Source: Gemmatimonadota bacterium (GTDB taxonomy: Bacteria > Gemmatimonadota > Gemmatimonadetes > Gemmatimonadales > Gemmatimonadaceae). From it: a DNA stretch of 64,000 bases. Shown here piece by piece: positions 1 to 53,454 of this stretch (position 1 is the first letter of the stretch; the number at the start of each line of letters is the position of its first letter). Below the pieces are notes generated by a model, which ran no database searches, was not told the DNA's origin, and saw nothing but the letters and a program-made list of their open reading frames with translations. Where the stretch lies: positions 1-64,000 of the forward strand of contig JAQBPX010000004.1 of the NCBI GenBank assembly GCA_028287305.1, in the 5' to 3' direction. Position numbers and translations under genes: made by a program.

Positions 1-2469
1 GATGACCGTGAACTTGTACCCGGACTCGTTGACGTCGGGCGGCAGCACCTCGATCCCGAGCTCCCGCGCCTCGTTGATGTACTTCACCACGGAGTCCGCG
101 TCGCCGATCTGCGACGACAGGAGCGCCGCCATGAACTCCGCCGGCCAGTGGGTCTTGAGCCACGCGGTGTGGTACGAGATGATCGAGTACGCGACCGAGT
201 GCGACTTGTTGAAGCCGTAGCGGCCGAAGGTCTCGATCTGTCCCGCCAGCTCGCCGATGATCTTCGCGTCGAAGCCGCGCGCGATGGCCTTCGACGAGAA
301 CTTGCCGAGCTCGGCGCGGATGAGCTCCGCGTCCTTCTTGCCCACCGCCTTGCGCAGCACGTCCGCCTCGGCCAGCGACACGCCCGCCAGCAGCTGGGCG
401 ATTCGCATCACCTGCTCCTGGTAGGTGATCACGCCGTAGGTCTGGCCGAGCACGGCCTCGAGCTCGGGGAGCGCGTACTTCACCGGCTCCTCGCCGCGCT
501 TGCGACGGATGTAGACCAGGTGCATCCCGCTGTCGAGCGGGCCCGGTCGCATCAGCGCGTTGCTCGCCACGAGGTCGTCGAAGCGGTCGCAGCGCATCTG
601 TCGCAGCAGGTCGGTGCCCAGCCCGGATTCGAACTGGAACACGCCGGCGGTGCGGCCGTTGCGCAGCAGCTTGTACGTCTCCTCGTCATCCAGCGGGATG
701 TTGTCGAGGTCCGGCGCGCTGCCGTGGCGCGCCGTGATCGCCTGCAGCGCGTCGTGGATGACGGTGAGGGTAGTGAGGCCCAGGAAGTCCATCTTGAGCA
801 TGCCTGCCTTCTCCAGGCAGTTCATGTCGTACTGGCTCACGATCACCGACTCGTCGTCGCCCGAGCCGGAGCCCTTGGACGACTGCGTGCACACCGGGAT
901 GTACTCGTCCACCGGGCCCGGCGCGATCACCACGCCGGCCGCGTGCACGCCCGTATGGCGCGAGAGCCCTTCGAGCGCGATCGCGTAGTCGAGCAGCTGC
1001 CGGTAGCGATCCTCGCCCTCGTAGAGCTTCCTGACGTCGGAGATCTGCGCGACCGCTTCCTTTACGGTCATGCTGAAGTTCGGCGCGTTCGGCACCAGCT
1101 TCGCGAGCGCGTCCGTCTCCGCCGGCGTGAAGCCCAGCGTGCGGCCCACGTCCTTGATCGCGGCGCGCGACTTCATGGTGCCGAACGTCACGATCTGGCA
1201 GACGGATTCCTTGCCGTACTTCTGCCGCACGTACTCGATCACCTCGCCGCGCCGCTCGAAGCAGAAGTCCACGTCCACGTCGGGCATGGAGATGCGCTCC
1301 GGATTCAGGAAGCGCTCGAACAGCAGGTCGAACTTCAGCGGGCAGACGTTGGTGATGCCGAGCGCGTAGGCCACGAGCGAGCCGGCCGCCGAGCCTCGCC
1401 CCGGTCCCACGGGAATGCCGCGATCGCGCGCCGCCTTGATGAAGTCCGCGACGATCAGGAAGTAGCCCGCGTAGCCCGTGCTGTGGATCACGCCCAGCTC
1501 GTAGTCGAGGCGCTGCTGCTGCTCGTCGCTCAGCTGCTCGCCGTAGCGCATGTGCGCGCCGGCCGTGGCCAGCCGCGAGAGCAGCTCATTCTCGCTCGGC
1601 ACCTCTGGCGGCAGCGGGAAGGCGGGGACGTGATACGTCTTGGAGAAGGAGACGTCCACCTCGCTCGCGATCTTGAGCGTGTTTTCGAGGACGTCCGGCC
1701 GCTCCTGGAAGCGCGCCTTGATCTCGGGCGCGCTCTTGAAGTAGAGCCCGCGGTCGTACTGCATGCGGTTCTGGTCGCTGCGATCCTTGCCCAGGCCGAT
1801 GCAGAGCAGGATGTCGTGCGCGTCGTGGTCTTCCTTTCGCAGGAAGTGCGCGTCGTTCGTCGCGATCACGGGCAGCGTCATCTCTTCCGCCAGGCGGAAG
1901 ATGTTCGTGTTCAGCGACGACTGGCCCTCGGAGTCGTGCGCCTGCACCTCGAGGTAGTAGCGATCGCGGAACACCTCGGCGTACCAGGCGGCGGCCTCGC
2001 GCGCCGCGTCCATGCGTCCCGCCTCGAGGTTCACCGCGACTTCCCCGGCCAGGCACGCCGAGGAGACGATGATGCCCTCGCTGTACTTCTCGAGCAGCTC
2101 GCGGTCCACGCGCGGCTTGCTGTAGAAGCCCTCCGTGTAGGCGAGCGAGGAAAGCTTCACCAGGTTGCGATAGCCGATCGCGTCGCGCGCGAGGAGCACC
2201 AGGTGGTAGTATGGCTTGGCGCCCGGCGAGGGACGCGCGCGCAGCCGGCGATCCCCCGGCGCGACGTACGCCTCCATGCCGATGATCGGCTTGAGCTTCG
2301 CCTTCTTCGCCTTCTCCTGGAAATCCCAGGCCGCGTGAAGGTTGCCGTGATCGGTGATCGCCAGGGCCGGCTGCTCGAGCTCCTGGGCGCGCCGGATCAG
2401 GTCGTCGATCCGGTTGGCGCCGTCGAGCAGCGAGTACTCGGAGTGGCAATGGAGGTGAACGAAGGACAT
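1..2469 (-). CDS. dnaE: DNA polymerase III subunit alpha (DnaE), C-terminus cut off
   Basis: Replicative DNA polymerase, class C catalytic subunit. The 823 codons present begin MSFVHLHCHSEYSLLDG, the start of the PHP domain with its metal-binding HxH. The catalytic motif PDVDVDF (Asp397, Asp399) lies where E. coli DnaE has D401/D403, preceded by the GPGRGSAAGS nucleotide-binding loop. The last residues in the window (PDVNESGYKFTVI) correspond to the end of the fingers region, so roughly the last 300-350 residues, including the clamp- and tau-binding parts, lie beyond the left edge. The start is the ATG at 2469; a promoter whose -10 sits 7 nt upstream suggests that the mRNA begins at or next to this ATG. 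The gene is divergent from the PorV-like gene at 2557. Confidence 0.97.
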   Translation of the reverse strand, partial: MSFVHLHCHSEYSLLDGANRIDDLIRRAQELEQPALAITDHGNLHAAWDFQEKAKKAKLKPIIGMEAYVAPGDRRLRARPSPGAKPYYHLVLLARDAIGYRNLVKLSSLAYTEGFYSKPRVDRELLEKYSEGIIVSSACLAGEVAVNLEAGRMDAAREAAAWYAEVFRDRYYLEVQAHDSEGQSSLNTNIFRLAEEMTLPVIATNDAHFLRKEDHDAHDILLCIGLGKDRSDQNRMQYDRGLYFKSAPEIKARFQERPDVLENTLKIASEVDVSFSKTYHVPAFPLPPEVPSENELLSRLATAGAHMRYGEQLSDEQQQRLDYELGVIHSTGYAGYFLIVADFIKAARDRGIPVGPGRGSAAGSLVAYALGITNVCPLKFDLLFERFLNPERISMPDVDVDFCFERRGEVIEYVRQKYGKESVCQIVTFGTMKSRAAIKDVGRTLGFTPAETDALAKLVPNAPNFSMTVKEAVAQISDVRKLYEGEDRYRQLLDYAIALEGLSRHTGVHAAGVVIAPGPVDEYIPVCTQSSKGSGSGDDESVIVSQYDMNCLEKAGMLKMDFLGLTTLTVIHDALQAITARHGSAPDLDNIPLDDEETYKLLRNGRTAGVFQFESGLGTDLLRQMRCDRFDDLVASNALMRPGPLDSGMHLVYIRRKRGEEPVKYALPELEAVLGQTYGVITYQEQVMRIAQLLAGVSLAEADVLRKAVGKKDAELIRAELGKFSSKAIARGFDAKIIGELAGQIETFGRYGFNKSHSVAYSIISYHTAWLKTHWPAEFMAALLSSQIGDADSVVKYINEARELGIEVLPPDVNESGYKFTVI

Positions 2470-24858: not shown

Positions 24859-25413
24859 GTGTTCGAAAGCATTCGCCGATCGCTCAATGAGCTGCTCGAG
24901 CGCGCCACTCCTCCCGAGGAGCGGCGCGCGGCGTTGAGCCGCATGAAGGAGACGCTGGTGCAGGCCCGGCTGGGCGTGGACGACCTCCGTGTCGGCGTCG
25001 AGAAGGCGCGCGCCCAGCTCGAGCGCGAGCGCGCGGAGCTGGAGACGGTGCGCCGCCGGAAGGGGCTCGCCGCGCAGATCAACGACGCCGAGACGGTGCA
25101 GGTGGCCGAGCGCTTCGAGGCGCTGCACGCCGAGCGGGCCGAGGTGCTCGAGCAGAAGGTGGCGACCCAGGAGCGCGAGGTCGCGATCGGCGAGCGTGAA
25201 CTGGAAGAGATGACGCGCGAGCTGAAGCAGGCGATGCACGCGCCCGGTCCGATGCCGCGCGCCGCCGCCCCCGACCCGCTGGATGATGGCAGCGCCAACG
25301 TGCAGCAGGAGATCGCCGGTCTCGCGCGCGAGCGCGCGCGGGCGGATCGCGAGGCGGATGCCGACCGCCGGCTCGAGGAGCTCAAGCGACGCATGACCAA
25401 GGGCCCGGAGTGA
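24859..25413 (+). CDS. PspA-like coiled-coil protein
   Basis: 184 aa. Nearly all predicted coiled coil: long Glu/Arg/Ala heptads from ~20 to ~125 (VEKARAQLERERAELETVRRRKG, EQKVATQEREVAIGERELEE), a short Pro/Gly-rich hinge (~126-143), and a second charged helix to the end. The pattern recalls PspA/Vipp1-type membrane-associated proteins but is shorter and lacks a clear amphipathic N-terminal helix, so this is only a resemblance. GTG start. The stop overlaps the Omp85-like gene's GTG (GTGA), so the two are translationally coupled. Confidence 0.65.
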   Translation: MFESIRRSLNELLERATPPEERRAALSRMKETLVQARLGVDDLRVGVEKARAQLERERAELETVRRRKGLAAQINDAETVQVAERFEALHAERAEVLEQKVATQEREVAIGERELEEMTRELKQAMHAPGPMPRAAAPDPLDDGSANVQQEIAGLARERARADREADADRRLEELKRRMTKGPE

Positions 25414-47284: not shown

Positions 47285-48472
47285 GTGCGCCTCGTCCATC
47301 TTTCGGACCTGCATCTCGGGTTCCGCCAGTACCAGCGCCTGACCCCCGCCGGCATCAACCAGCGGGAGGCCGACGTGGCGCGCTCGTTCCAGCGCGCGGT
47401 GGACATGACCATCGCGCTGCGGCCGGACCTGGTGCTCGTGGCCGGCGACGTGTTCCACAACGTGCGCCCCACCAATCCCGCCATCCTCCACGCCTTCCAC
47501 CAGTTCGCGCGACTCACGCGCGAGCTGCCCGAGGCGATCGTGGTGGTGGTCGCCGGCAATCACGACACGCCGCGCGCGCTCGAGACCGGGTGCATCCTGC
47601 GGCTGTTCTCGCCGCTCGGCGTGCAGGTCGTGGACATGGAGCCGCAGCGCCTCGCCTTCCCCGAGCGCGAGCTGTCCATCCTCTGCGTGCCGGACATTCC
47701 AGGCAACCGCCCGGCGCTCGTGCCAGACCCGGACGTGAAGCACAACATTCTCCTCCTCCACGGCGAGGTGGAGGGGATGCTGCCGGCGCACGCGCAGTCG
47801 GTGGACCGCGCCGCGCTCGAGATTCCGCTGGAGGAGCTCGGCGCGGCGCGCTGGAGCTACGTGGCGCTTGGACACTACCACGTGTACCGCCAGGTCGCGC
47901 CGAATGCGTTCTACTCGGGATCGATCGACTACACGAGCGCGAACGCGTGGGGCGAGCTGTACGAGCAGAAGGAGGCAGGCCTCGAGGGGAAGGGCATCAT
48001 CGAGCACGACCTCGTCACCGGATACCATCGCTTCCATCCGCTGGCCCCGAGTCGCGTGCTCGCGGACCTGCCCCCCGTCTCGGCGAAGGGGCTGACCACT
48101 GACGAGGTGGACGCGGCCGTGCGACACGCGGTCGAGTCGTTTCCGGGCGGCATCGAGGACAAGGTGGTGCGGCTGATCGTGCGTGACATTCCCCGGCACG
48201 TCGCGCGCGAGCTGGACCACAAGGCGCTGCGGGAATATCGCAAGCGCGCGCTGCATTTCTACCTCGACACGCGAAAGCCGGAGGCGGTGCCACGCACCGG
48301 CGATGGTGCGCCGGGTCGGCGACCCTCGCTGCTCGAGATCGTGCGCGAGCAGTTGCAGGCGCGCCCGCTGCCGGCCGATCTCGATCGCGCGCGGCTCGTG
48401 TCGCTCGGCCTCGAATACCTGGCGCAGGCGGAACAGGGCGCGAGCATTCCATCGGCGGCGGCGCTGGAATAG
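47285..48472 (+). CDS. sbcD: SbcD/Mre11 nuclease
   Basis: 395 aa. Calcineurin-like Mre11/SbcD fold. Metal motifs: SDLHLG (Asp8, His10), AGDVFHN (Asp55), GNHDTP (Asn92-His93-Asp94), LLHGEVEG, ALGHYHVYR. 3'-5' dsDNA exonuclease and endonuclease; partner of SbcC. GTG start. The next gene starts 2 nt after its stop. C-terminal capping domain and a Rad50-binding tail follow the nuclease. Confidence 0.94.
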   Translation: MRLVHLSDLHLGFRQYQRLTPAGINQREADVARSFQRAVDMTIALRPDLVLVAGDVFHNVRPTNPAILHAFHQFARLTRELPEAIVVVVAGNHDTPRALETGCILRLFSPLGVQVVDMEPQRLAFPERELSILCVPDIPGNRPALVPDPDVKHNILLLHGEVEGMLPAHAQSVDRAALEIPLEELGAARWSYVALGHYHVYRQVAPNAFYSGSIDYTSANAWGELYEQKEAGLEGKGIIEHDLVTGYHRFHPLAPSRVLADLPPVSAKGLTTDEVDAAVRHAVESFPGGIEDKVVRLIVRDIPRHVARELDHKALREYRKRALHFYLDTRKPEAVPRTGDGAPGRRPSLLEIVREQLQARPLPADLDRARLVSLGLEYLAQAEQGASIPSAAALE

Positions 48473-48474
48473 GC

Positions 48475-50922
48475 GTGCGCATCAACAGCCTGCACCTCCA
48501 GAACTTCCGCCAGCACGTGGATACCCGCGTCGAGTTCGACACGGGGCTCACCGGCATCATCGGCTCGAACGGCTCCGGCAAGACCACGCTGCTGGAGGGC
48601 ATCGCGTGGGCGCTGTACGGCATGCCGGCCGCGCGCGGAACGCGTGAGTCCATTCGCTCGATTCGCGCCGGCGCGCGCGCGCAGGTGCGGGTCGAGCTCG
48701 ACTTCGAGCTCGGCGGACATCGCTATCGCGTGGTGCGCGGCCTCACGAGCGCGGAGCTCTACCTCGACGGCGCGCAGCAGCCGATCGCGAACAGCATCAC
48801 TGGCGTCACGGACCTGCTCCGCCGTCGGCTCGGCATGAGCCACGAGGAGTTCTTCAACACGTACTTCACGGGGCAGAAGGAGCTCAGCGTGATGGCGGCC
48901 ATGGGGCCGTCGGAGCGGGCGCAGTTCCTCTCGCGCGTGCTGGGGTACGAGCGGTTGCGCACGGCGCAGGCGCTCGTGCGCGACCAGCGCCGCATCATCG
49001 CCGCCGAGGCGGTGGGGCTGCGCAACGGGATGCCGGATCCGGAAAGCATCGAGCGCATGTCGTCGGAAGCGGCCGCCCGGCTCGCGCTCGCGCGGGAACA
49101 CGCCGGCGATGCCGCGCGTCGCACCGCCGATGCACAGCGCGAGCTCGCCGACGTCACCCCCCGGTGGGCCGCGTCGCAGCAGGAGCGCGAGCAGGTGCAG
49201 GAGATCCTCGGCGAGCTGCGCGTCGCCGAGGGGGAGGAGGCGGTGCATGCGCGCGAAGTCCAGCGCCTGGAGCGTGAACTGGCGGAGATGAGCGGCGCGC
49301 GCGAGGCGCTGCTCACGCTCAGCGCCGAGATCGCGCCGCTGACCGACATGCGCCTGCAGGTGCACTCACTCGACGTGCTCTGTCGCGAGGAAGGGCGACG
49401 ACAGGCGCTGCTCGAGGGCCAGCGCTCCATAGCCGAGGAGCTCGCGAAGATGTACGAGCGCCTGGGCCGGCTGGAGCAGGCGCCCGAGCTGGTGGTCGAG
49501 GCGGGGGCGGAGCTGGATCGTCGGCGGGGCGAGCTCGCGGTGCTGGAGGGGGACCTGGACGAGCGCCGCACCGCGTGGGTGCGCGATCGCCAGGAAGCGG
49601 AGACCAAGCTGCTGTCGCTGCGCGAGCTGTACGGCGAGATCAGGGTACAGCGCGAGCGCCTGGTACAGCTCGGCGAGGAAGGCATCTGCCCCACCTGCCA
49701 GCGCCCACTCGGCACGCACTTTCGCGTGGTGCTCGACATGATCGACGAGCAGCTGGATGCCGCGAAGGTTGACGGCAACTACTACAAGTCGCGGACCGAG
49801 CAGCTGGAGCATGCGCCGGAGGAGGTGAGGGGGCTCGACGAAGGGCGCCGTTCGGCGATGGACGACGTCGCGAAGCTCGAGCGGCGGCTGGTGAAGGTGC
49901 AGGTGGCGATGCAGGAGCTGGGACAGCTGGCGAAGGATGCCGACGTCAAGCTGCAGCGCGCGCAGCAGATCCAGCGCGACCTGGATGCGATTCCCGGCGG
50001 CTACGATGCCACGCGCCACGAGGCCCTGCAGGCGGAGATCGCGCGCCTCGCCCCGCTCGAGGTGCGCGCGCAGCGGCTGGCCATGCAGGCCGAGCGGGAA
50101 CCGCAGGTGCGGGCCTCGCTCGAGCGCGCGTCTGGCGAGCAGTCGCGCGTGAGCACGCGCGCGGCCGAGCTGCGCGCCAGGCGCGAGGCGATCGCGTTCA
50201 GCGAGGAGCGGTACACCATGCTGCGAGCCGCGCACGAGCGGGCGTCGGCGGCGCTGCGGGCGGCGGAGCTGGCGGGCGTCGCGGCAGAGGGCGACGCGAC
50301 CAACGCGCGCCAGGCGCAGGAGTCGGCGCTGGCGGCGCGGAAGGAGCTGGCCCGCTCGCAGGCGCGGCTCGACGCGCTCACGGCGGACAAGCGGCTGCAC
50401 GATGAGCTGGATCGTGCATATTCGGACATGCGCACGGACCTCAACCAGCAGCTGCGCCCCGAGATCTCCGAGATCGCCTCGCGCTTTCTCGCCGACCTCA
50501 CGGACGGCCGCTACTCGGAGCTGGAGCTCGACGAGGCGTACAACATCCTCGTGCTGGAGGAGGGGATCCCGAAGCCGGTGATCTCGGGCGGCGAGGAGGA
50601 CCTCGCGAACCTGGTGCTGCGCCTCGCGATCTCGCAGATGATCGCCGAGCGCGCCGGGCAGTCGTTCTCGCTGCTGATCCTCGATGAGGTGTTCGGGTCG
50701 CTGGACGAGTCGCGCCGCCACAACGTGGTGGAGCTGCTGCGCCGCCTGCATGACCGCTTCGAGCAGGTGATCGTGATCACGCACATCGAGTCGGTGCGCG
50801 AGGGACTGGACCGCGTGCTCACCGTGCGCTTCGACGACGAAAACGGCGCCAGTCGGGTTGCGCACGAGGAGCCGAGGGCACTCGGCGTGGGCGACCTGGT
50901 GCTGGCGGCGGAGGCGGGCTGA
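48475..50922 (+). CDS. sbcC: SbcC/Rad50 ATPase with zinc hook
   Basis: 815 aa. N-terminal Walker A GSNGSGKTT (30-38, Lys36), long coiled coils (~170-390 and ~430-640), zinc hook CPTC (Cys405, Cys408) exactly in the middle (EEGICPTCQRPLG), C-terminal signature VISGGEEDLANLVLRLA, Walker B LLILDEVFGSLDES. Shorter than E. coli SbcC (1048) and close to archaeal Rad50 (about 880). With SbcD it forms the end-binding Mre11-Rad50 complex. Its stop overlaps the GNAT ATG (TGATG). Confidence 0.95.
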   Translation: MRINSLHLQNFRQHVDTRVEFDTGLTGIIGSNGSGKTTLLEGIAWALYGMPAARGTRESIRSIRAGARAQVRVELDFELGGHRYRVVRGLTSAELYLDGAQQPIANSITGVTDLLRRRLGMSHEEFFNTYFTGQKELSVMAAMGPSERAQFLSRVLGYERLRTAQALVRDQRRIIAAEAVGLRNGMPDPESIERMSSEAAARLALAREHAGDAARRTADAQRELADVTPRWAASQQEREQVQEILGELRVAEGEEAVHAREVQRLERELAEMSGAREALLTLSAEIAPLTDMRLQVHSLDVLCREEGRRQALLEGQRSIAEELAKMYERLGRLEQAPELVVEAGAELDRRRGELAVLEGDLDERRTAWVRDRQEAETKLLSLRELYGEIRVQRERLVQLGEEGICPTCQRPLGTHFRVVLDMIDEQLDAAKVDGNYYKSRTEQLEHAPEEVRGLDEGRRSAMDDVAKLERRLVKVQVAMQELGQLAKDADVKLQRAQQIQRDLDAIPGGYDATRHEALQAEIARLAPLEVRAQRLAMQAEREPQVRASLERASGEQSRVSTRAAELRARREAIAFSEERYTMLRAAHERASAALRAAELAGVAAEGDATNARQAQESALAARKELARSQARLDALTADKRLHDELDRAYSDMRTDLNQQLRPEISEIASRFLADLTDGRYSELELDEAYNILVLEEGIPKPVISGGEEDLANLVLRLAISQMIAERAGQSFSLLILDEVFGSLDESRRHNVVELLRRLHDRFEQVIVITHIESVREGLDRVLTVRFDDENGASRVAHEEPRALGVGDLVLAAEAG

Positions 50923-51896
50923 TGGCCACGAGCCGAAGCTGGCGCCCGCCGCGCGTGATCGTGGGACCGCAGCTGGCGCGGACCGAGGACATCGCGCCGC
51001 TCAATCATGTCTTCAGCGACGCGTTCACCGAGCGCTATCGCCGGGACGGGATGGTGGGCGTGCGCGTGCCCTTCCTCAACCCATCGGTGTGGCGCTATGC
51101 GATCGAGGATGCGGCGGGCGGCGCGATGCTCTGGCGTGACGACCGCGGTGACATCGTGGCGTTCAACATGGTGCACCTCTCCGGCTCCGAAGGGTGGATG
51201 GGGCCACTGGCGGTCCGCACGGAGGAGCAGGGAAGTGGCACCGGCAAGGCGGTGGTGATCAGCGGGATCGACTGGCTGAAGGAGCAGGGCGCGCGCGTGA
51301 TCGGGCTCGAGACCATGCCGCGCACCATGGACAACATCGGCTTCTACTCCGGACTGGGGTTCGTGCCCAACAGGCTGACGCTCACGGTGACGCTGGATGC
51401 GGCGTTCGCCGACCGCCCCGCGGCGCTGCTGTCGCGCTGCTCGCACTTCGAAAAGGAAGAGGCGCTGGCCGACTGTCGCGCGCTGCTGCAGGTGCTGGCC
51501 CCTGGATACGACTACACGCGCGAGATCCAGCTGACCGACGAGTTGTCCATCGGGGACACGCTGCTGCTGCGACAGGGGGACGCACTGGTGGGATTCGCAC
51601 TGTGTCATACAGTGCCGCTGGTCGAGGGGCGCTCGCGCGAGGAGCTGCGCGTGTTGAAGCTGGTGCTGTCGGACGCCGCGCATCTCGACGGGATGCTGGG
51701 CGCGCTGCGGGACTTTGCGCGGCGGGGCGGCACGCGGCGGATCTCGATGCGCGTGCAGGGCGACTACACGGATGTGTACGCGCGGATGGTGAAGCTCGGC
51801 GGGCGCGTGCGGTGGACGGACCTGCGGATGGCGCTTGGGGGATTCGAGGAAGCGCGACCAGCGTCAGGCGTGGTGCTTTCCAACTGGGAGATCTGA
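50922..51896 (+). CDS. GNAT family acetyltransferase, two-domain
   Basis: 324 aa. N-terminal GNAT domain (~15-170) with motif A as VRTEEQGSGTGKAVV (acetyl-CoA pyrophosphate loop), and MDNIGFYSGLGFVPN; a second, degenerate GNAT-like half (~175-320). Substrate unknown. Last gene of the herA/nurA operon, overlapping sbcC by one base, so co-expressed. No active-site residue can be assigned with certainty. Confidence 0.8.
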   Translation: MATSRSWRPPRVIVGPQLARTEDIAPLNHVFSDAFTERYRRDGMVGVRVPFLNPSVWRYAIEDAAGGAMLWRDDRGDIVAFNMVHLSGSEGWMGPLAVRTEEQGSGTGKAVVISGIDWLKEQGARVIGLETMPRTMDNIGFYSGLGFVPNRLTLTVTLDAAFADRPAALLSRCSHFEKEEALADCRALLQVLAPGYDYTREIQLTDELSIGDTLLLRQGDALVGFALCHTVPLVEGRSREELRVLKLVLSDAAHLDGMLGALRDFARRGGTRRISMRVQGDYTDVYARMVKLGGRVRWTDLRMALGGFEEARPASGVVLSNWEI

Positions 51897-51917: not shown

Positions 51918-52076
51918 TCACTTGACCGGCTTGTCCCCCCGCACGACGATCCGGTAGATCAGCAGGAAGACGCCGCCCGTGAGCAGCAGGTGGATCCACC
52001 CCGGGCCATTGAACGCCAGCGCGCCAATTGCCCAGATCACCAGCATCGCGACAGCCGCAACGATTCCGAGGTCCAT
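51918..52076 (-). CDS. DUF5670 (lmo0937-like) small membrane protein
   Basis: 52 aa: MDLGIVAAVAMLVIWAIGAL then AFNGPGWIHLLLTGGVFLLI and a basic end RIVVRGDKPVK. Two membrane helices with a short polar turn and the G-IH-LL pattern typical of DUF5670/lmo0937 membrane peptides; members are often stress-linked, role unknown. ATG at 52076 behind GGAGCGGGA. On the strand opposite the operon's end, with its promoter region shared with the RNA at 52129. Confidence 0.75.
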   Translation of the reverse strand: MDLGIVAAVAMLVIWAIGALAFNGPGWIHLLLTGGVFLLIYRIVVRGDKPVK

Positions 52077-52093: not shown

Positions 52094-52122
52094 TTGCATG
52101 ACCCGCGCAAGGAATGTACATT
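52094..52122 (+). promoter_or_regulatory. Promoter of the candidate 6S-like RNA
   Basis: TTGCAT (52094-52099), 17 nt, TACATT (52117-52122): a near-consensus sigma-70 promoter. The -10 lies in the perfect palindrome AATGTACATT (52113-52122), so the same bases also offer a -10 for the minus-strand DUF5670 gene. Confidence 0.65.
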
Positions 52123-52128
52123 GCTTGA

Positions 52129-52330
52129 GCGCAGGATCGCAGGAATGAAGAGCCCGTTTTTGAGCCGATAAGTCCTTTCGGTGGGTTCGACATACTGGGC
52201 CGACGTCATGCCCCCAGTGCGGGGGAAGGCGGAAGACCCGGTGAGGGCCTCAGCATTCTGACTGGGCTTCATAAAACCCTCTTCGTTCCACTACCTCGAG
52301 CCCCGTGGGTAACCGCGGGGCTCGTCGTTT
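52129..52330 (+). ncRNA. ssrS: Candidate 6S-like RNA
   Basis: About 200 nt between a good promoter and a factor-independent terminator, with no reading frame. Closing stem: GGAATGAAGAG (52142-52152) pairs with CTCTTCGTTCC (52279-52289), followed by GTTTTTGAGCC pairing with GGCTTCATAAAAC. Beyond is a largely single-stranded region whose 3' strand carries a small hairpin TCAG-CATT-CTGA, and an apical hairpin CCCCC-AGTGC-GGGGG. A single long rod with a central bubble and a 3'-side mini-hairpin is the 6S architecture; GAGCCGATA is also found in proteobacterial 6S RNAs. No covariance evidence. Another structured RNA is possible. Confidence 0.5.
52297..52330 (+). terminator. Terminator of the candidate RNA
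   Basis: CGAGCCCCG (52297-52305), loop of 10 nt, CGGGGCTCG (52316-52324), then TCGTTT. Lies 58 nt before the PTPS ATG. Confidence 0.75.
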
Positions 52331-52388
52331 CCGCCCCACGGAACCCGGCAGCGAGCAGGAGCGTTCGCTTCCACATGCGAGGCCTCCG

Positions 52389-52802
52389 ATGCCCATCGTG
52401 ACGGTGACGCGCCGCCTCCACTTCAATGCGGCGCACCGCGTCCACAATCCCGCCCTCTCCGACGAGGAGAACCTGCGGCTGTTCGGGAAGTGCAACAACC
52501 CGAACTGGCACGGCCACAACTACATGCTCGACGTCTCCGTCACCGGGCCGGTCAGCGACCGCACCGGTTACGTGATCGACCTCGGAGTGCTCAAGCGCAT
52601 CGTGCAGGAACAGGTGATCGAGCAGGCCGACCACCGGAACTTCAACATCGACGTCGCGTTCATGCACGATGTCATCCCGACCAGCGAGAACATCGTGGTC
52701 CAGTGCTGGCGCGTGCTGCAACCGGCCATCGCGCCGGCAACGCTCTCGCGCCTGGTCCTTTGGGAGACGCCGAACAATTATGTCGAATACTCGGGCGAAT
52801 AA
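52389..52802 (+). CDS. 6-pyruvoyl-tetrahydropterin synthase family protein
   Basis: 137 aa. Zinc site His16 (FNAAHR), His41 and His43; catalytic Cys35 in CNNPNWHGH. The spacing is C-x5-H-G-H, as in eukaryotic-type PTPS (tetrahydrobiopterin), whereas QueD (queuosine) usually has C-x3-H-G-H. The next two genes (folE copy 2, SDR) support a biopterin role. ATG 52389 behind GAGG. Its last 23 nt overlap folE. QueD is the alternative. Confidence 0.85.
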
Positions 52803-53454
52803 CGCCGTCACGCCGCTGCACCCGGGGCGCCTCGAACAGCTCGAGCGCCACGATCACGCCCTCGACCCGGCTGGTGATGCCGCCGGCACGCAGGCGCGCT
52901 ACGCCGCGGCCGTCCGCGAGCAGCTCGCGCTCATCGGCGAGGATCCCATGCGCGAGGGACTGCGCAACACGCCGGACCGCGCCGCCAAGGCCGCCAGCTT
53001 CCTCACCAGCGGCTACGGGCTCACGGCCGAGGGCGTGGTCGGCGACGCCCTGTTCGCCGCCGAGGGCCACGAGCACATGGTGGTGGTGCGCGACATCGAG
53101 CTCTACTCGCTCTGCGAGCACCACCTGCTGCCGTTCTTCGGCAAGGTGCACATCGCGTATATCCCGGGCGAACGGATCGTGGGCCTCTCGAAGCTGCCCC
53201 GCATCGTGGAGGTGTTCGCCCGCCGCCTGCAAGTGCAGGAGCGGCTCACCGAGGAGATCGCCGGCGCGGTGGAGCGCGTGCTCGCGCCGCGCGGCGTGGG
53301 CGTGGTGATCGAGGCCGTGCACCTCTGCATGATGATGCGCGGCGTGGAGAAGCAGAACTCCAAGACGATCACGAGCGCGCTCAAGGGACAGTTCCGCGAC
53401 TGCCCGATGACGCGCAACGAGTTCCTGCGACTCGTGCACTCGGCGCGCGACTGA
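52780..53454 (+). CDS. folE: GTP cyclohydrolase I, copy 2
   Basis: 224 aa. Same enzyme as the 39635 gene with ~36 extra N-terminal residues. Zinc ligands Cys112, His115, Cys183. ATG at 52780 inside the PTPS gene; the frame is open further up but only as overlap. It supplies dihydroneopterin triphosphate to PTPS. The close identity to copy 1 (by eye ~86%) suggests recent duplication or gene conversion. Confidence 0.94.

Follow-up and report, generated by a model that had tools for sequence, protein, structure and literature searches.

The conserved structured non-coding RNA that we describe here, ~150 nt at positions 52141-52291 of the forward strand of the 64,000-nt stretch of DNA analyzed (the window), is very probably the 6S RNA (ssrS) gene of the source Gemmatimonadota bacterium. 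On the basis of sequence comparisons, we put the probability that it is a divergent yet genuine member of that family at about 0.95. 6S RNAs are small bacterial RNAs that mimic an open promoter and thereby trap RNA polymerase. The transcript probably extends from ~52129 to 52330 (Table 1). The family to which the RNA belongs is a known one, and what is new is its phylum-wide lineage and its conserved linkage to pterin genes. In the literature that was searched, 6S RNA and Gemmatimonadetes/Gemmatimona- were not found together, and an earlier prediction in the phylum is possible. The original prediction for this DNA was of a 6S-like RNA, an identity that is borne out by homology in both directions: RF00013 finds the copies of relatives, and models of the locus RNA find E. 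coli ssrS.

Table 1. Features of the 6S RNA locus and its neighbors (window coordinates).
Feature	Position	Strand	Basis
Promoter: TTGCAT (52094-52099), 17 nt, TACATT (52117-52122); start of transcription about 52129	52094-52122	+	Sequence, recurrence in loci
6S RNA core, 151 nt, model boundaries	52141-52291	+	Model R1, 134.9 bits; model R3, 122.5 bits; RF00013, 19.3 bits; homologues in relatives
Closing stem P1, 5' arm	52142-52152	+	Pairs with 52279-52289
P2 (downstream duplex), 5' arm, UUUUUGAGCC; the body of the pRNA is predicted to be copied from it	52157-52166	+	Pairs with 52265-52275
Central bubble, 5' side; predicted pRNA start opposite U52169 (pRNA AUCGGCUC...)	52167-52182	+	Unpaired probability, alignment with E. 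coli U44
Apical stem and GC-rich terminal hairpin	52183-52250	+	Consensus helices 6-10
Central bubble, 3' side; variable, weakly paired	52252-52263	+	Mean unpaired probability about 0.4-0.6
P2, 3' arm, GGGCUUCAUAAA; alternative partner AAGUCC 52170-52175	52264-52275	+	GGGCUUC nearly invariant
Closing stem P1, 3' arm	52279-52289	+	Covariation over relatives
Intrinsic terminator: 12-bp GC hairpin 52297-52324, then TCGTTT	52297-52330	+	Sequence, recurrence in loci
Divergent 52-aa small membrane protein, DUF5670-like	51918-52076	-	PF18919, E 3e-4, just under cut-off
PTPS, 6-pyruvoyl tetrahydropterin synthase; approximate ends	52389-52802	+	PF01242, E 8e-33
folE, GTP cyclohydrolase I; start approximate	52786-53454	+	PF01227, E 3e-72

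With 52120-52340 as the blastn query, most same-family genomes gave a clear homologue (75-84% identity over roughly 75-190 nt). The first alignment, of 38 same-family homologues, gave an RNAalifold consensus of 46 pairs, 19 of them with two-sided changes, and the model made from it (R1) has a match in 257 of 298 Gemmatimonadota genomes, nearly always one per genome. Sixty genomes, mostly at the order and class levels, gave additional loci. Across 81 sequences, 91.4% of cells are paired and 41 of the 46 pairs change on both sides, counts that lean upwards because the alignment was fitted to the structure of the model. The covariation score is 0.556, compared with 0.215 in shuffles (0/500 reach the observed value) and 0.07-0.10 in slid controls, which keep 41-55% of cells paired. 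Pairing in relatives, the lack of which the original prediction had set beforehand as grounds for refutation, is therefore conserved.

Most elements of the predicted fold were confirmed. The strand 52129-52330 has a folding energy of -94.7 kcal/mol, compared with -75.8 +/- 5.0 in shuffles (z -3.8; 0/200 shuffles), as expected for the long rod that had been proposed. The closing stem, given as 11 bp, is formed by GGAAUGAAGAG with CUCUUCGUUCC, and all 11 pairs are standard. Relatives show two-sided changes at all ten of the modelled pairs, with 95.9% of cells paired, which is hard to explain except by conserved structure. Pairing in P2 is kept in 92-100% of sequences, pair by pair, and in the apical stem (helices 6-10) 83-99% of cells are paired, with two-sided changes in 18 of 20 pairs. 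The GC-rich apex is also present, where CCCCC 52211-52215 pairs with GGGGG 52221-52225. The claim of a central bubble with a 3' mini-hairpin stood in its first part, positions 52167-52170 having a mean unpaired probability of 0.87-0.88, but the CAG/CUG hairpin around 52251-52260 is absent as a conserved feature. That the RNA holds no reading frame likewise agrees with the comparison. We rejected the coding ORFs across 52141-52291, which are mechanical entries of the ORF list, and the pattern of substitution among relatives is that of an RNA.

The signals that flank the RNA had been described more favorably than their sequences warrant, yet both recur in relatives. The supposedly good promoter matches the consensus at 3/6 and 4/6 positions, which is weak, and was not reported by a simple scan. 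However, the motif TTG[AC]NN-16..18-TANN[TA]T lies upstream in 35 of 40 same-family loci, where 0.28 would be expected, and in 18/30 mostly same-order and 9/30 class loci, where the expectation is about 0.25. These expectations (about 0.2-0.3 per set) come from mononucleotide shuffles, and because the motif was picked by inspecting the same-family set, the order and class sets are the fair tests. The terminator has a poor T run at the locus and was missed by a simple scan, but at the corresponding site hairpins occur in 39/39 same-family loci, in 28/30 of the mostly same-order set, and in 28/30 class loci, with four or more T following in most (25 of the 39 same-family loci, versus 3 in shuffles). 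Promoter and terminator are thus both conserved, genomic evidence for the independent transcription unit expected of a 6S gene.

Family membership could not be read directly from Rfam. With RF00013, the check that had been suggested, the window copy scores 19.3 bits against a gathering cut-off of 46.4, and this sub-threshold score leaves it unannotated. Because RF00013 gave no match at the gathering score over the window and none over the whole source genome at E <= 10, we do not take the window score as proof. Most same-family copies also fall below the cut-off. Where RF00013 does match in relatives, the matches coincide with the locus RNA, reaching 36.9 bits in L036, and two class-level homologues are above the cut-off, L085 at 51.4 bits and L087 at 56.6 bits (L035 is below it at 40.5). 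The same two have R1 scores of 60.7 and 58.3 bits, respectively; only R1 had recruited L085, and RF00013 had found the L087 locus independently. We discarded the strongest RF00013 match in a same-family genome (L031 in G300, 62.5 bits) as an apparent contaminant of proteobacterial origin, because its neighbors on G300:C266 resemble zapA, an EVE-domain protein, and hemE (by eye from ORFs); the copy that belongs to G300 itself lies at C376. Rfam families other than 6S gave no plausible match at the locus, and we regard miRNA-family and similar matches, e.g., in L008, as low-complexity chance.

In the reverse direction, E. coli ssrS lay beyond the reach of model R1 alone, but a broader model, R2, scored it at 31.1 bits. 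A third model, R3, was made without the sequences that RF00013 had recruited (L033, L034, L035, L085, L087, L132, L134, L137, and L138), although its set retains some family members to which RF00013, too, gives low scores. In a 50-kb E. coli stretch, R3 found ssrS in register (24996-25151; gene 24983-25165) at 27.5 bits and E 2e-4, E-values from these models being rough, and found nothing else there. In the source genome, the window locus was the single match of R3, and neither that search nor the whole-genome RF00013 search gave a second 6S candidate. The E. coli and Gemmatimonadota RNAs share a rod with a closing stem, P2, a central bubble, and an apical stem, but E. coli ssrS is longer, at 183 nt, than the Gemmatimonadota core of about 150 nt.

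The features that mark the 6S family are present: a closing stem, a large central bubble, an apical stem with a loop, and a conserved predicted pRNA template with a purine start on the 5' side of the bubble, UGAGCC(A/G)A(C/U)A. The most conserved stretch of the RNA, UUGAGCC(A/G)A(C/U)A with GGGCUUCAA, makes up P2 and the start of the bubble. At the same position, E. coli 6S RNA has the template motif UGAGCCGAUA, identical to that of the window copy. E. coli U44, where the pRNA of that RNA starts, aligns with U52169, a mostly unpaired position occupied by C or U in 80 of the 81 sequences. The pRNA predicted for the window copy is AUCGGCUCAAAAACGGGCUC, and its first nine bases (AUCGGCUCA) are the same as those of the E. 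coli pRNA predicted likewise from ssrS.

A housekeeping promoter and a terminator belonging to the gene itself would start and end transcription of the RNA. By analogy with the family, the central bubble of the rod would imitate an open promoter and sequester RNA polymerase holoenzyme carrying the primary sigma factor. During outgrowth, a short pRNA would be initiated by the polymerase opposite U52169 (5'-AUCGGCUCAAAAACGGG...), and its synthesis would unwind P2 and release the polymerase. The freed 3' arm of P2 (GGGCUU) could then pair with AAGUCC in the bubble. Each pair of this alternative helix is present in 84-97% of sequences, with almost only one-sided changes, and the helix may be the equivalent of the central bubble collapse helix with which Bacillus subtilis 6S-1 and Aquifex 6S RNAs are released (PMC8876501). 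The likeness lies in a P2 3' arm for which the far 5' side of the bubble is an alternative partner; sequence and neighbors differ, and in Gemmatimonadota the collapse helix is a conserved possibility. We infer polymerase binding, pRNA synthesis, a stationary-phase role, and the collapse helix from what is established for the 6S family.

A fold of this type could also belong to an RNA like Ms1 of Actinobacteria, which has the 6S-like rod, is described as structurally related to 6S RNA, and binds polymerase (PMC9130861). An Ms1-like RNA would bind core polymerase without sigma and have no role as a pRNA template, and the fold alone cannot separate the two. However, the Gemmatimonadota RNA keeps the 6S template motif, which together with the unpaired +1 pyrimidine and the P2 duplex forms its most conserved parts. 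The model reaches E. coli ssrS, and 6S is the sole Rfam family that plausibly matches the locus, so we regard an Ms1-like identity as extremely improbable. A different possibility is raised by the genes downstream. The pterin neighborhood named in the original prediction is real and conserved across the class: PTPS follows the RNA in the same orientation in 30/40 same-family loci and in 25/30 at the class level, and folE lies downstream in 21/30 class loci. The RNA might consequently be a 5' leader riboswitch or attenuator of PTPS-folE that senses pterin, the terminator between the RNA and these genes deciding read-through. Such a leader would always lie upstream of, and co-oriented with, the gene it regulates, but here the RNA is kept although an opposite-strand membrane protein gene (cation exchanger-like by eye) directly follows it in L012, L016, L110, L112, and L115, and although an unrelated same-strand gene follows in L085. 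It is because of these genomes that we do not read the RNA as a leader. In addition, the terminator stem overlaps no conserved pairing, leaving no visible switch, and the RNA has 6S homology. Overall, this reading appears very unlikely.

A 6S RNA could still supply PTPS/folE mRNA through partial read-through of its terminator, which would extend the 6S reading without replacing it. The same-strand linkage maintained across the class and the poor T run at the locus point in this direction, and the arrangement is comparable to that of E. coli ssrS and ygfA. Termination of E. coli ssrS was reportedly studied by Chae et al. in 2011 (cited in PMC10406553) with regard to downstream ygfA expression. 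The linkage is, however, broken in several genomes, and we see combined 6S function and read-through as possible but somewhat unlikely. Functional coupling of Gemmatimonadota 6S RNA to pterin synthesis, in which limited read-through would let PTPS/folE follow the growth-phase profile of 6S RNA, is a more doubtful proposal. The folate neighbor of 6S RNA in many Proteobacteria is ygfA (PMC9130861), which in E. coli adjoins ssrS and encodes formyl-THF cyclo-ligase (PF01812). That linkage, common in several groups but not defining for 6S RNA, is replaced by PTPS/folE in Gemmatimonadota. PF01812 has no match in the source genome, and among 101 genomes of the phylum, 9 have matches and 92 have none.

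The upstream side of the locus also shows recurrent neighbors. The DUF5670-like gene lies divergently upstream of 6S in 37/40 same-family loci. Two genes at 47285-50922 (+) resemble SbcD and SbcC (nuclease and SMC-like ATPase) by eye and are followed, before 6S, by a gene for a GNAT-domain protein (50922-51896), which is upstream in 27/40 same-family loci. In L123, group II intron matches at 1001-1379 (-) adjoin the 6S homologue.

Some genomes carry divergent forms of the RNA. For example, G264 has two copies, of which the typical one precedes PTPS (L109, 117.8 bits) and the other, at a different site, is divergent and has a longer apical loop (L035, 56.8 bits; RF00013, 40.5), while only divergent forms are found in G014, G015, G030, and G211 (L132, L134, L137, and L138). 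By analogy with Bacillus, a second 6S type in Gemmatimonadota is possible.

RF00013 scores above its cut-off in 3 of 298 genomes of the phylum, one of these being the apparent contamination, compared with the 257 matched by the model of the locus RNA. Rfam thus misses 6S RNA in most Gemmatimonadota genomes, and the alignment presented here would extend RF00013. 6S RNA stands beside folate or pterin genes repeatedly, in unrelated phyla and with differing members of the pathway, and the Gemmatimonadota lineage makes the question that this raises testable. If the proposed coupling is true, it would parallel E. coli ssrS-ygfA with other genes and may hint at a general reason for the linkage between 6S RNA and folate. 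For the phylum itself, the finding provides a recognizable and testable global regulator of transcription.
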